Shown here one piece after another: positions 10,617 to 15,518 of a DNA stretch of 42,754 bases. Every line of letters starts with the position of its first letter. Within the stretch, counting starts at the first letter, position 1. Made by a program: the position numbers and the translations under genes. Origin of the DNA: Anaerolineae bacterium (GTDB taxonomy: Bacteria > Chloroflexota > Anaerolineae > Aggregatilineales > Phototrophicaceae); assembly GCA_030950085.1 (NCBI GenBank), contig JAUZRW010000036.1, positions 1-42,754 on the forward strand. Reading direction: 5' to 3'. The notes under the pieces were generated by a model. That model saw only the letters and a list, made by a program, of their open reading frames with translations, was not told the origin of the DNA and ran no database searches.

Positions 10617-11426
10617 GTGAGGTACAAGTCAAATTCAGTGATGGTAGAACAAAGTACAGAAACCCGTCAACAATCGACAGCAACCTACCCGATGGGACGC
10701 GCTGTTGTCGTGTTGCCAACCTATGATGAACGCGACAATATTGAGGCTGTAACAGAGGCTGTTCTCAAGCAACAAGCACAGATTGCCAACTTTGAATTGC
10801 ACGTTCTCATTTCTGATGGACATTCGCAAGATGGCACAATGGATATCGCCCAACGGATGGCAGATGAAAATCCGCGTGTGCATTTCATTGATGTGAATAA
10901 ACGCGGTATTGGTGCCGGCATATTCGTCGGTTTCACGCACGCCATCAATGAAGTCGATGCCGATGTTATCATCGAAATGGACTCTGATTTCCAGCATAAC
11001 CCCCATGATATCCCTATTATGTTGGAGCAAATTGCCGCCGGCTATGATGTTGTTGTTGGGTCACGGTTTTTGACAGGTAGTCACAATAATATGCCCTTCT
11101 TTCGCAAAATCTTGAGCTACGGGGCGAATGCTGTCTTACGCATTGCACTCGGTCTCAAAGGGGTGACAGAAATTACCACCTCATTCCGTGCTATTCGTAA
11201 AGAGGCATTCCTCAAATTAGACGAAAGCGAAGTCCCTTGGTGGGAAGAAAAATCATTCATCGCTGTGCCAGTTTTTCTCGTGCGGATGCTCAGTAAAGAT
11301 GTGAAAGCAACCGAAGTTCCGATGACGATGCACCCGCGTATCAAAGGCTACTCTAAGATGATTTATTGGCGCTATATCCGCGATGTCTTGTGGTTTTCCT
11401 TCAAAGACCGCCTCGGATTGACGTAA
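10617..11426 (+). CDS. GT2 glycosyltransferase, polyprenyl-phosphate mannose/glucose synthase-like
   Basis: A 269-residue soluble GT-A fold enzyme resembling Dpm1, which moves a sugar from a nucleotide donor to polyprenyl phosphate on the cytoplasmic membrane face. Motifs are VVVLPTYDERDNI (about 31-42), ISDGHSQDGT, and the metal-binding DSD (122-124) in EMDSDFQHNP. There is no C-terminal membrane pair, so it is the short form. The start is uncertain: a GTG at 10617 opens the longest frame and an ATG at 10641 also fits; neither has a convincing ribosome binding site. The gene heads a run of membrane glycosyltransferases that would use its lipid-linked product. Confidence 0.9.
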   Translation: MRYKSNSVMVEQSTETRQQSTATYPMGRAVVVLPTYDERDNIEAVTEAVLKQQAQIANFELHVLISDGHSQDGTMDIAQRMADENPRVHFIDVNKRGIGAGIFVGFTHAINEVDADVIIEMDSDFQHNPHDIPIMLEQIAAGYDVVVGSRFLTGSHNNMPFFRKILSYGANAVLRIALGLKGVTEITTSFRAIRKEAFLKLDESEVPWWEEKSFIAVPVFLVRMLSKDVKATEVPMTMHPRIKGYSKMIYWRYIRDVLWFSFKDRLGLT

Positions 11427-11440
11427 TTTAGACCCTCATC

Positions 11441-12964
11441 ATGTTTTTAATCAAAAGCAGCACTCAGAAAAGCACAGCAACCGAAAAGCATCTGCCACGA
11501 TGGTTTGATATCCTATGGTTGCTTGTGTTATCAGCGTATATTTTGGCAGGCATATCACTTGTGCCACTACATGGCGATGAAAGCACACAAACTTATATGG
11601 CACGCGATTTCTACACTTTGTTTGTTGAGCGAGATTTGTCACAGTTAAGCTATGGTGCATGGGATACGCTAGATGGTCAGGCAGCGACAGAGCAAGATTT
11701 ACGCTTAAAAGATGGTGTCCTGCATCGTTATCTCTTTGGTGCGGCTGCCTCTATGGGCGGATACACTGTTGATGACCTCAATGAGCAATGGGTATGGGGC
11801 GCAGGTTGGGATTGGAATCATCAGAATGGTCATGTGCCAAGAGATGATTTACTGTTCCGTGCGCGATATGTTTCGGCGGCGATGTTGGCAATCGGCATGA
11901 TGACTCTATTTGCGATTGCGAATAAAATTGGCGGACGGTTAACCGCTTATATTGCGACACTTCTCTATGCCACAAGTCCGGCGTTACTGCTCAATGGGCG
12001 ACGGGCTATGATGGAAGGGGCAATGACTCTATTTAGTTTATTGGTTGTTCTTGCTGGATTATGGGTCGTACAATCGCGTAAATGGTGGACATTTGCATTA
12101 CTCGGATTATTCAGTGGATTAGCAGTTGCGAGTAAGCACACATCGGTTGTGACGGTTGCGGCTGTGTTTGTGGCATGTGGGCTGGTGATTATATACCCAT
12201 ATTTGCAAGAAAAATCGCACTCGCTAACGGACGGGATAACACAGTTTAGCGCCTTAGTACCGCAAACCCCTCCCCCTAACCCCCTCCCCGAATTCAAGGA
12301 GGGGGAATCATTCTCCCCTGAATTCGGGGGAGATGTCGCCTCAGCGACAGAGGGGGTTGAAACACCATATTATCTCAAAGATTATGATTCTATCATTAAA
12401 CAACTCCTATATTTAATTATGGCTGGGATTTTATCGCTGACTGTTTTCTACGGGCTGAATCCGGCGTGGTGGTCAAACCCTGTAGCGCGTGCCAAAGAAG
12501 TCTCTGCTATTCGCCTTGATTTTATGCAAGCGCAACAAGATACTTTTGGTGGCTACGAATCGTTCACAGATAGACTCAATGGTTTTTTCTGGCAGACGTT
12601 CGGGATGCAAAATATGGTTGCTGAAACCGATATTGATAATTTTATCGACAATCTTTCAGATGAAACTGCCACATACGAAGCATCATTATTTAGCGGATTC
12701 ATCAATGGTGGTTTTGTCGTTATGCCATTGGCTTTCTTGGGATTGTCTCTACTAGGTGGGATTGCGCTCTGGCTTGACACTCGCACTCATGCTGAACTGC
12801 GTTTTGTTATTGCTGTATGGGTCGTAGCAATGATTATCCTGACTCTATTCTTGACTCCGCTTGAATGGCAGCGATATTATTTACCAGTCTATCCGCCTGT
12901 TATGTTATTAAGTGGTCTCGGCGTGCGATATCTCATCCACCGCGTTCGTCACCTCATCACCTGA
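11441..12964 (+). CDS. GT-C membrane glycosyltransferase (PMT/ArnT-like) with an in-frame repeat insertion
   Basis: A 507-residue polytopic protein. The first membrane helix (about 23-41) is followed by HGDESTQTYMARD; the Asp46-Glu47 pair sits in the first external loop where GT-C enzymes of the PMT/ArnT type hold their catalytic acid. About ten further helices follow. Such enzymes move sugar from a polyprenyl-phosphate carrier to protein or lipid, which suits the GT2 gene 14 bases upstream. Between two membrane segments, residues about 276-306 (bases 12266-12358) are a Pro/Gly/Glu-rich stretch encoded by a palindromic repeat rather than ordinary glycosyltransferase sequence. The frame stays open through it. 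The acceptor is unknown. Confidence 0.88.
   Translation: MFLIKSSTQKSTATEKHLPRWFDILWLLVLSAYILAGISLVPLHGDESTQTYMARDFYTLFVERDLSQLSYGAWDTLDGQAATEQDLRLKDGVLHRYLFGAAASMGGYTVDDLNEQWVWGAGWDWNHQNGHVPRDDLLFRARYVSAAMLAIGMMTLFAIANKIGGRLTAYIATLLYATSPALLLNGRRAMMEGAMTLFSLLVVLAGLWVVQSRKWWTFALLGLFSGLAVASKHTSVVTVAAVFVACGLVIIYPYLQEKSHSLTDGITQFSALVPQTPPPNPLPEFKEGESFSPEFGGDVASATEGVETPYYLKDYDSIIKQLLYLIMAGILSLTVFYGLNPAWWSNPVARAKEVSAIRLDFMQAQQDTFGGYESFTDRLNGFFWQTFGMQNMVAETDIDNFIDNLSDETATYEASLFSGFINGGFVVMPLAFLGLSLLGGIALWLDTRTHAELRFVIAVWVVAMIILTLFLTPLEWQRYYLPVYPPVMLLSGLGVRYLIHRVRHLIT
12266..12358 (+). repeat. Palindromic, GC-rich repeat element inserted in frame in a coding gene
   Basis: About 93 bases, a multiple of three, of highly foldable sequence. 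The outer arms AACCCCCTC (12278-12286) and GAGGGGGTT (12350-12358) are exact inverse complements. Inner arms CTCCCCGAATTC (12284-12295) and GAATTCGGGGGAG (12320-12332) pair with one bulge, and TGTCGC/GCGACA (12334-12339 and 12344-12349) form a further hairpin. The C-rich start resembles CCCTCCCCCTAACCCCCTCCCC-type intergenic repeats familiar in bacteria. It encodes a Pro-rich then acidic peptide in a loop between membrane helices. Confidence 0.8.
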
Positions 12965-12989
12965 AAATAGCTCTGGTCATCATTTGCCT

Positions 12990-15518
12990 ATGGAATCACT
13001 TTACTGGCTCACACAAAGTCTAGCAGCACTGCCCCTCGCATTATGGGTTTATCTCGGCTTAGGGATACCGTATGCCTTGCTCATTTTGCCACGACAAGAT
13101 TGGCAAAGTCGGGCAATGGTACTTTGTGTCGGATTTGCCTTGGGTCCAGCATTATTGACAGCTTGGATGTTTATTCTCGGTACAATTGGTGGCGCAACAG
13201 AAACAGCCTTATTGCGCTTCGATTTGATATTCGTCGGAACAGTGCTAATCGCTGTCGTCGGAATTGGGTTTGCATGGCGAAAAGCCCGTAGCACAACAAG
13301 TCAAAAATTACCCGCCACACCGCTTGCATTGGATGAGTGGGTTTTGCTGGGATTAATCTTAGCCGCCGTCATTATACGCTGGCTCACTGTCGCTTACTGG
13401 CCTTTCACCGCTTATGATTCACTATGGGTTTATGGCTATGAGGGGCGCTCATGGTTTTTGCAAGGATTCATCTCGCCGGATATTGGCTATTATCCGCAAT
13501 TTTTACCCTTACAATATACGTTTATGCAGCTTGGAGTCGGTGCAATTGATGACCATGCTGCCCGAATTGTTGTACCATTTTTGCAGTGGGGAAGCATCCT
13601 TGCAGCCTATGTCTTAGGGATGCGACTCGTTAATCGTCGCACAGGGTTGATACTGGCTGCTATTTGGACACTGTATCCGCATCTCGCTATGTGGTCACAT
13701 GTCGGCGATTTGGAAGTCCCCCTGACATTTTTATTCACCGCGACTTGCGCCTTTTTCTTGATGGCATGGACAGCTAAGGGCACTTTTTTACGTCGCCGTT
13801 ACGCACTCATAGCCGGTATTTTCTTTGGCATTGCCATGTGGACAAAACCGACTGCTGGGGCGTTTATTTGGGGCGTTGTGTTACTGGTCTTGATTGAATT
13901 ATTGCGCGTGCGTTTTGATTGGCGACAATGGTTTCCGCGTTTTGAAGTTGCCTTGATTGCTGGGCTGGCTTGTATTCCATTAGGCGCAATCTGGTATATT
14001 CGCAATATCGTGCTTGGACTGCCGCCGTTGGTCTTTCCACATCCATCATGGCTCGACTTAGCAACGCGCAGTGGTGACTTGCTCAGTTGGCTGATATTAG
14101 CTCTGTTCCTGTTGATTGCCTATCTAGCGACTACGCGCACACTCAAAAAGGGTAAGTGGCTATTATTGGTCGGTATGCTGCTGATACTTGTCGGGACAAT
14201 GCCATCATCTCCAGTCATGATTCGCTTCGATAACTGGTTAGGATTCAATCTGTTAGATACTGCCCGTCTCAATCCACCCGATAGCCGCCTAACAATAATC
14301 GAATGGCTCTTGATTGGCACGGGTGTCGCGCTGACACTCTTTCATCTGCGCCAATATTTGTCAAAAGACGTACTGCCGACTGTCAAAAACGTAGGCTGGG
14401 CATATGGTCTTGCGCTGCCTTATTTTATCACATGGTTCTGGTCATATAGTTATCATGCACGGCTCTCATTTGCGATTGTGCCATTACTCGCCTTACCATC
14501 GGCTGCGATTTTGGCGCACTGGGTTGATAGCCGCAAATGGCGATTCTCGCGGCAATTGCTGTGGGCAATGAGCATAATTGCGATAAGCATCCCAAGTGTG
14601 ATTATGCCACTTTATAGCCTTGACCATTATTACGATTGGTTGTGGACAAATCGTTATACAGATGACGTTGCCAAGTACAAATTACACAATGCCGATGTTT
14701 TTCTCACCGCAGAGCAATTATGGGGTTATGAGGTAGTTTATGGACGCGAGCCTATCGTGATTGCACCGGGCGAACAACGCCTGCCCTTCTTTTTGCCGCA
14801 AGCAACGATTATCACCGACACGCTACCCACGACACTTGATGAATTAGAGGGTGCGACACATTTTTTGTACGGCTCATTGGCGCAATGGCGCTATGAAAAT
14901 GATGAAGGCATTGACCCACTGCAAAATCAGGTAGTTGCAGCATTGGGACGCGAAGACATCATGGAAAAGGCGCTCAACTTCGTTACTGGAAGTTTTCGCT
15001 ATGAATTGTATGAGTTGCATCTCGAAAATCGGGATATTCCGCTCGAAGATACACGCATCGGAAATTTTATAGCGGATGATGTTGTTTTTGGCGGATTCGC
15101 CCGTTATCTCGGTGATAATGTCAGCAATGGGCAACTGGTTGGCAATACCATTTATATTGATTATCTGTGGGATGTGCTTGCAGAAACCGAAGATGATTAT
15201 TTCGTTCAGATTGATTTACGGAATACCGAAGATGGGCAAATCTATTTTACGTGGCGCGACCCTGTAAATCCGCATCAACATGGGAGCAATCCACGAGTGT
15301 TATATTACAGCACGCAGGTCTGGCAAGCGGGTGAGCGCATTGTCGATAGGCGTGCTATTCAGTTAGACTATAATGGCACAATGCCCGACGGACGAGACAT
15401 ATACAGGCTCATCGTCAATTTTGTGGATGCCGAGACGCTCGAACCGCTTCCAATGACGATTAATGGTGAAGCGGCTGATGGTTATCCGATGGTTGCCCGA
15501 TTCAGCATCCGAAACTAA
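12990..15518 (+). CDS. Large GT-C-like membrane glycosyltransferase with a C-terminal soluble domain
   Basis: An 842-residue protein. The first 560 or so residues carry about 12 membrane helices. The external loop after the third or fourth helix contains TAYDSLWVYGYEGRSWF with an acidic residue (about Asp143) where GT-C enzymes keep the catalytic acid. The last 270 residues are hydrophilic and probably outside the cell, ending in a beta-rich segment (LVGNTIYIDYLWDVL, YFVQIDLRN, YRLIVNF). I chose the ATG at 12990, 25 bases after the preceding stop; a longer reading from 12912 would overlap the previous gene and add a peptide unlike a membrane start. There is no strong ribosome binding site. 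It converges on the next gene with overlapping stops. Substrate and acceptor are unknown. Confidence 0.85.
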   Translation: MESLYWLTQSLAALPLALWVYLGLGIPYALLILPRQDWQSRAMVLCVGFALGPALLTAWMFILGTIGGATETALLRFDLIFVGTVLIAVVGIGFAWRKARSTTSQKLPATPLALDEWVLLGLILAAVIIRWLTVAYWPFTAYDSLWVYGYEGRSWFLQGFISPDIGYYPQFLPLQYTFMQLGVGAIDDHAARIVVPFLQWGSILAAYVLGMRLVNRRTGLILAAIWTLYPHLAMWSHVGDLEVPLTFLFTATCAFFLMAWTAKGTFLRRRYALIAGIFFGIAMWTKPTAGAFIWGVVLLVLIELLRVRFDWRQWFPRFEVALIAGLACIPLGAIWYIRNIVLGLPPLVFPHPSWLDLATRSGDLLSWLILALFLLIAYLATTRTLKKGKWLLLVGMLLILVGTMPSSPVMIRFDNWLGFNLLDTARLNPPDSRLTIIEWLLIGTGVALTLFHLRQYLSKDVLPTVKNVGWAYGLALPYFITWFWSYSYHARLSFAIVPLLALPSAAILAHWVDSRKWRFSRQLLWAMSIIAISIPSVIMPLYSLDHYYDWLWTNRYTDDVAKYKLHNADVFLTAEQLWGYEVVYGREPIVIAPGEQRLPFFLPQATIITDTLPTTLDELEGATHFLYGSLAQWRYENDEGIDPLQNQVVAALGREDIMEKALNFVTGSFRYELYELHLENRDIPLEDTRIGNFIADDVVFGGFARYLGDNVSNGQLVGNTIYIDYLWDVLAETEDDYFVQIDLRNTEDGQIYFTWRDPVNPHQHGSNPRVLYYSTQVWQAGERIVDRRAIQLDYNGTMPDGRDIYRLIVNFVDAETLEPLPMTINGEAADGYPMVARFSIRN

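Follow-up and report, generated by a model that had tools for sequence, protein, structure and literature searches.

Palindromic repeats flanking in-frame DUF559 nuclease domains suggest a so far undescribed kind of bacterial mobile element

A stretch of DNA of 42,754 nucleotides from an Anaerolineae bacterium (hereafter, the window) carries a strongly folding palindromic repeat inside an uninterrupted gene for a GT-C membrane glycosyltransferase. With a probability that we put at about 0.7, judged from comparison of sequences, this insert would be a protein-coding palindromic repeat and would belong, as a form lacking the nuclease, to a family of mobile elements, the complete form of which would consist of a palindrome, a DUF559 domain (a Vsr-like PD-(D/E)XK endonuclease) and a second palindrome. 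We found the repeat dispersed in its genome, inserted in frame and patchily present among relatives, DUF559 lying between repeats, and sites common to short and complete forms. According to the mechanism that we propose, such elements would insert into genes where loops are permissive and persist as long as the reading frame remains open, the short form giving its host protein a Pro/Gly/Glu-rich linker and the complete form giving it a linker-nuclease-linker segment with no splicing domain. Cutting by DUF559 would start, and the nuclease thereby presumably drive, the spread of the elements, and the short forms would either derive from complete ones as remnants or be moved by them in trans as passengers. 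Likewise, the elements are presumably mobile, translated and active, and the fused host proteins probably made and working.

Results and Discussion

A folded repeat within the frame of a glycosyltransferase gene

The genome to which the window belongs (G000) is a 5.09-Mb draft in 266 contigs, 97% complete. The host gene lies between two other glycosyltransferase-type ORFs (Table 1); its product matches PF13231 (E 1.2e-10) and PF02366 (E 2.7e-9), has no relatives in the PDB at E<=1 and gave no match to the Intein_splicing profile. A preliminary description of this DNA had proposed that nested inverted repeats interrupt the gene without breaking its frame and add residues to a loop between membrane helices. 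The ORF is indeed free of stops throughout the element, and an AlphaFold model of the protein (mean pLDDT 84.2) places residues 273-309 in a low-confidence coil between helices 233-272 and 310-339, in agreement with the proposed loop. The inverted repeats are equally real, since the RNA folds at -52.6 kcal/mol (z -4.1) and the DNA with a z of -5.05, in each case with 0/200 shuffles as good. An extent of 93 bases (12266-12358) had been given; the element is located there, but the unit common to its copies is slightly longer. In the predicted fold, an outer stem pairs the ends of the element and encloses three hairpins, the first of which forms the core of the module with the widest dispersal (model R1, below). 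A search of window positions 12000-12600 against Rfam returned a single match below threshold, whalefall-1 (18.9 bits vs a gathering score of 37), which covers 12267-12336 on the minus strand.

Table 1. Features of the window, element places inside genes of G000 and genes hosting DUF559 elsewhere
Feature	Location	Strand	Basis	Remark
GT-C membrane glycosyltransferase (PMT_2/PMT family), host gene	11441-12964	+	ORF, Pfam matches	507 aa
Family 2 glycosyltransferase, upstream neighbour	10617-11426	+	ORF, Pfam
Second GT-C type ORF, downstream neighbour	12912-15518	+	ORF, Pfam	overlaps host gene end in mechanical ORF list
Palindromic element, full-length copy	12264 to ~12372	+	repeat alignment	sense-read as about 32-36 residues (TPPPNPLPEFKEGESFSPEFGGDVASATEGVET...); without counterpart in 27 homologues measured
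Outer stem of multi-hairpin fold	12267-12355	+	fold	arms 12267-12272/12350-12355
Hairpin 1	12280-12305	+	fold	arms 12280-12287/12298-12305, C-rich and G-rich, around GAATTCAA
Hairpin 2	12312-12333	+	fold	arms 12312-12320/12325-12333, around TGAATTC
Hairpin 3	12334-12349	+	fold	arms 12334-12339/12344-12349, TGTCGC/GCGACA
1-nt deletion	12311-12312	+	copy alignment	unique to window copy among five full-length copies
1-nt insertion (G)	12359	+	copy alignment	unique to window copy among five; in less conserved tail
Element in GT-C gene of the window	G000		Pfam
Element in second PMT_2 gene	G000, C193		Pfam
Elements in ORF with Polysacc_synt part	G000, C153		Pfam	one good, one weak
Element in DnaB intein	G000, C35		Pfam
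Elements in type ISP restriction-modification protein	G000, C211		Pfam	three copies
Element in another type ISP restriction-modification protein	G000, C232		Pfam
Elements in Eco57I-type protein	G000, C151		Pfam	two
Elements in MmeI protein	G000, C157		Pfam	three
Element in PriA	G000, C208		Pfam
Element in phage capsid protein	G000, C44		Pfam
Element in FGE-sulfatase/TIR protein	G000, C23		Pfam
DUF559 in MetH, Bacteroidia genome	L404		Pfam	before B12-binding domain
DUF559 in MetH, Stygiobacter (Ignavibacteriota)	L415		Pfam	before B12-binding domain
DUF559 in LeuRS, Pustulibacterium	L406		Pfam
DUF559 in LeuRS, Chitinophagales	L409		Pfam
DUF559 in IleRS, Bacteroidota genome	L410		Pfam	145 residues vs 4 in 8c8w
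DUF559 in PurL, G030	L224		Pfam
DUF559 in HsdM, Verrucomicrobiia	L390		Pfam
DUF559 in type ISP protein, Pseudanabaena	L401		Pfam
DUF559 in DUF1156 protein	L407		Pfam
DUF559 in oxidoreductase with Pyr_redox_2	L343		Pfam

Compared with the other four full-length copies found in G000, the window copy bears two single-base changes of its own. In the host's reading frame, each of the other four would meet a TGA, whereas the window copy does not: the deletion after 12311 avoids the TGA, so that the frame stays open, and the inserted G at 12359 restores the frame of the host. Together, the two indels leave the net length of the copy unchanged. They support selection for an open frame and, along with the open frames themselves, suggest that the element is tolerated as peptide, as had been supposed; with one case to go by and the inserted base located in a less conserved tail, the argument is one of support and not of proof. 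In the window, the element would sit between two GT-C helices, probably kept translatable by compensating changes. No target-site duplication was seen by eye in the five full-length copies.

Homologous glycosyltransferases lack the insert

Homologues of the host protein were matched in 58/61 family genomes, with 35-47% identity across the alignment. We read the 29 best other loci, 28 of them besides that of G005 (L030), and 27 of these could be measured, L038 being left out as unreadable in the frame used. The segment from VASKH to LNPAWW, which has a length of 110 aa in the window and of 93 aa in L030, spans 45-66 aa in the 27 homologues, and by eye the insert peptide occurs in none of the 27. 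The objection that all orthologues might carry the same peptide therefore falls.

The nearest orthologue, that of G005 (44% identical to the host), contains an in-frame palindrome of its own in the same loop, unlike the window element in sequence. This repeat has a 100% copy elsewhere and 51 matches in the G005 genome (72-nt query; the identity extends beyond it), and it folds into an outer stem around two hairpins, a plan similar to that in the window (z -5.7). Since the same loop holds different repeats in two genera, the two insertions would most simply be separate events. The hairpin module of the G005 repeat is also found to the left and right of a DUF559 gene, oriented oppositely on the two sides; that gene is split over two frames and looks broken.

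Copies of the element in G000 and its relatives

BLAST searches of G000 with the element gave 24 matches at E<=0.001, which disposes of the objection that no other copy exists. Five copies, the window's included, are near full-length with 90-100% identity; measured against the window, those on C151 and C49 are 94% identical over 108-109 nt, that on C215 is 93% and that on C193 is 90% identical. None of these other four lies within a long ORF, in keeping with the earlier remark that the C-rich end resembles repeats between genes. We then searched with two repeat models, R1 (the left module) and R2 (the whole element, built on only 1.66 effective sequences). Because scoring covered 150 of 1218 candidates from the first look for R1 and 150 of 1286 for R2, the resulting catalogue of at least 48 distinct places (56 R1 matches, minus 10 opposite-strand duplicates, plus two places found by R2 only) is a lower bound. 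Seventeen of the 48 places are inside an open frame with at least 80 aa on both sides (11/34 when R1 matches at E<=1e-4 are taken), and 16 of these 17 have the element in the sense orientation. Since the remaining 31/48 lie outside such frames, genes are not the element's main niche. Pro, Gly, Ser and Glu abound in the encoded peptides, which draw on several reading frames. The preliminary description had likened the insert to Rickettsia palindromic elements (RPE); given the 17 places in open frames and the homologues read without an insert, the comparison is apt in the sense that the element works like them.

Across the family, the window element was matched in 55/98 genomes, the matches listed being mostly to the left module, with at most 9 or 10 candidates scored per genome. 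In the DnaB intein of G000 (L149, C35), the element occupies aa 500-531, a mobile repeat within an intein. A RAYT was considered as the mover of the element in G000 and rejected: the genome's single match to Y1_Tnp belongs to the end of a 604-aa ORF (L087, C18), which is no obvious RAYT gene, with the proviso that one could have been missed in a draft that is 97% complete. The Y1-transposase-like domain of L087 is perhaps domesticated.

Considering how strongly the element folds, it might be kept for a role as RNA or DNA, as an mRNA hairpin or a nuclease target, with the peptide a tolerated by-product. The multi-branched fold recurs in the different repeat of G005 and four of the five full-length copies lie outside long ORFs, as this explanation would have it, but palindromy might also be needed for mobility, and the only Rfam match stays well below its threshold. 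We regard such a role as unlikely.

A DUF559 nuclease between palindromes

G000 contains one match to DUF559 (PF04480), in frame within a 1160-aa MmeI ORF of C157 and flanked by two element places, C157:4178-4308 (R2 E 2.9e-7; left part R1 E 8.4e-9) and C157:4665-4707 (R1 E 8.6e-6). The stretch concerned counts 222 residues vs 47 in the MmeI of known structure (5HR4). An AlphaFold model of the protein was weak (pLDDT 62.3, pTM 0.39); in blocks of ten residues, DUF559 scored around 56-82, and the values of about 22-39 for the palindrome-coded stretches are in line with flexible linkers but prove little.

Among the family genomes, 67/98 have a DUF559 match and 31/98 are without one. Counting matches at E<=5.6e-21 (weaker ones, being fragments or distant and including parts of ~1700-aa proteins, were left out), we found 27/96 in open frames of at least 300 aa and 20/96 in frames of at least 900 aa, compared to 0/35 matches in frames of at least 300 aa for true Vsr (PF03852), used as a control (27/96 vs 0/35, Fisher p 1.3e-4, the matches not being independent). 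When DUF559 lies in a long ORF, peptides of palindrome-like type, for example SPPNPLSAHGEGE and GSPSPRAERGLGG, usually border it. The flanks of 67 chosen family loci were also searched for perfect GC-rich 8-bp hairpins at most 250 nt from DUF559; these were present in 40/63 upstream and 40/65 downstream flanks, in 51/760 control windows and in 3/28 and 0/28 Vsr flanks, an enrichment at DUF559 of about ninefold in the family loci, and similar in named genomes. G000's own DUF559 flanks have no perfect 8-bp hairpin by this strict test, like more than a third of the other DUF559 flanks. This weighs against the proposed partnership of nuclease and repeat, as do the one DUF559 match of G000 set beside at least 48 repeat places, the family genomes without DUF559 and the location of most catalogued copies outside genes.

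The insertions divide recognizable host domains. The MmeI_Mtase profile, for instance, is split by DUF559 in L210, L211, L213, L215 and L217, and the FGE-sulfatase profile lies in two stretches around it in L214, L216 and L228, while none of 30 DUF559-bearing ORFs scanned matched Intein_splicing. Twelve aligned DUF559 sequences have in common D46, E57, D59 and H63, which we take to be catalytic residues. Several of the DUF559-bearing ORFs (L216, L218, L228, L214) are NACHT, STAND, TIR or DUF4062 proteins, classes that are common among defence or signalling genes.

The repeats might alternatively be ordinary REP or MITE sequences that owe their movement to a RAYT or some other IS transposase and occasionally fall in frame, DUF559 being merely a neighbour. 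In-frame intragenic REPs are described from several bacteria, and repeats of the GTAG type from Chloroflexi (PMC3733652), and G041 has at least nine repeat matches and no DUF559 match. What makes this explanation improbable is that inside genes copies of the element enclose DUF559, at sites where element-only copies also occur (see below), that hairpins are so enriched at its flanks, and that the sole Y1_Tnp match of G000 comes with no obvious RAYT.

Short and complete forms at the same sites

PriA was located in 92/98 family genomes, and the stretch before Walker A was read in 90 loci plus G024 (G010 ends 12 aa upstream, at a contig end). Inserts were found in 11/91 genomes, scattered over seven genera, and by eye neither type was seen in the rest. 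Seven genomes (G000, G012, G021, G029, G041, G044 and G067) have the palindrome-type peptide alone and four (G008, G023, G024 and G071) have DUF559. The insert in the PriA of G023 (L229/L298, G023:C531) is a decayed DUF559 that has lost its EVDG..H motif, is still in frame and has hairpin-free flanks, as expected of a degenerating homing element. In G029 (L278) and G044 (L280), which belong to one genus, the palindrome-coded stretch before Walker A clearly differs in length, as if repeats had recombined in frame.

Other sites tell the same story. The FGE site before LPTE holds the element in G000 and DUF559 in L214, L216, L223, L228 and L233 (the last visible from the right side only, at a contig end). 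ISP site A has DUF559 in L227 and L234 and the element alone at G000 C211:20464; ISP site C has DUF559 in L341, L349 and L353 and the element alone at G000 C232; and MmeI site 2 has DUF559 in L225 and the element alone at G000 C157:5851. In all, 5/15 of the gene places at which G000 has the element alone correspond to sites that bear DUF559 elsewhere, two of the five (C157:5851 and C232) having been found by R2 alone, with E values of 1e-3 and 4e-3.

On a tree of 50 nucleases, with insertion-site labels assigned by eye, the 30 rows at nine recurring sites required 11 site changes, whereas 200 shuffles of the labels gave 21.5 changes on average and 18 at the least. Taken alone, this clustering fits both homing and inheritance and proves neither. 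It could mean that DUF559 and its palindromic linkers are stable domain fusions, inherited vertically and not mobile, since nuclease relatives tend to share sites. Patchy presence within genera strains such an account, as does the scatter of the PriA insert; moreover, closely related nucleases (L220, L225 and L227) are found in different genes, the FGE site holds different nuclease branches (L228 vs L214, L216, L223 and L233), and in G000 and G005, the two genomes tested for this, the repeats at the flanks also occur dispersed. We therefore consider vertical fusion very unlikely, and the tree fits re-use of sites as well as movement between sites. Finally, although Pro/Gly-rich loops are common in proteins, the notion that the window insert is a natural low-complexity linker, palindromic by chance, is refuted by its four copies of 90-94% identity outside long ORFs, by folding z values of -4 to -5 and by the 27 measured homologues without an insert.

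Relation to known elements

RPE were reportedly described by Ogata in 2000 and 2002, and EDxHD or Vsr-like homing endonucleases are said to have been treated by Taylor in 2011. We know of no established way in which in-frame palindromic repeats move, and the Vsr-like homing endonucleases known to us are in introns or inteins, or free-standing. RPE are palindromic DNA dispersed in frame in unrelated genes, the peptide being tolerated (PMC10969869, PMC3733652), and in-frame palindromic repeats have been in print since 2000 (PMC10969869). The elements described here share with RPE this dispersal in unrelated genes and the orthologues without an insert, a likeness of behaviour and not of sequence; they differ in occurring in other phyla and in that the complete form carries a nuclease between the palindromes. 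Intragenic REPs (GTAG/CGTC) are short palindromes, single or paired, that code for 20-30 aa in genes including those of replication and repair (PMC3733652). Ours are similar in all of this except their partner, which for intragenic REPs is a RAYT transposase or none and here is DUF559. A REPtron requires a RAYT/Y1 transposase gene with REP ends, and no such arrangement was found in G000.

A DUF559 gene has been assigned to the EDxHD homing family (PMC9403480). Like EDxHD homing endonucleases, the nuclease here is Vsr-like and sits in conserved genes at recurring sites, and its conserved active-site-like residues would be those of a homing endonuclease; unlike them, it is surrounded by no splicing domain and the frame runs through. 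Inteins resemble these insertions in being in frame within conserved enzymes, at recurring sites and with or without a nuclease, but the DUF559-bearing ORFs scanned gave no Intein_splicing match. Our searches of the open-licence literature turned up no paper that connects DUF559 with palindromic repeats or with in-frame insertion without splicing. If DUF559 is indeed the partner, the movement of in-frame palindromes becomes testable, as enzyme, ends, and filled and empty sites are at hand. In the genomes examined, nearly all of them draft or metagenome assemblies, no transposition event, target-site duplication or base-resolution empty site was seen.

DUF559 insertions in other phyla

Somewhat less firmly than the reading of the window insert, we think it rather probable that these elements form a class of bacterial mobile elements that live inside proteins unspliced. 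Their palindromic ends would be translated as flexible linkers around DUF559, in loops that permit insertion within central enzymes (PriA, IleRS, LeuRS, MetH, PurL and restriction-modification proteins), and nuclease-less palindromes would be their small derivatives. Unlike inteins and introns, such an element would live in frame as a parasite that its host tolerates and does not remove, and would extend to at least Chloroflexota, Cyanobacteriota, Bacteroidota, Verrucomicrobiota and Ignavibacteriota. If this is true, the central enzymes of some genomes contain a built-in nuclease domain or its linker scar, which would bear on annotation, on structure work and on the origin of new protein segments from selfish DNA.

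In named genomes, we scanned the best 80 of 545 DUF559 relatives, requiring an active-site-like pattern. Open frames of at least 300 aa contained 31 of these 80, five of which (L347, L357, L368, L376 and L388) are probably family contigs that had already been read, and hairpins were present in 52/80 upstream and 53/80 downstream flanks of the same best 80, compared to 92/1674 control windows. The two LeuRS cases, L406 and L409, are insertions at two different sites. Hairpins occur on both sides in the IleRS L410 and the MetH L415 (1 and 1) and in the PurL L224 (3 and 3), while few or none were found in the MetH L404 (0 and 0) and in the LeuRS L406 (0 and 0) and L409 (0 and 2). Since L404 and L406 are hairpin-free and L409 has hairpins on one side only, the tie between DUF559 and palindromes is less strong in Bacteroidota. 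PDB matches to the MetH of L404 cover 22-409 in some chains and 548-1028 in others. In the MetH proteins of two phyla (L404 and L415), DUF559 lies directly before the B12-binding domain.
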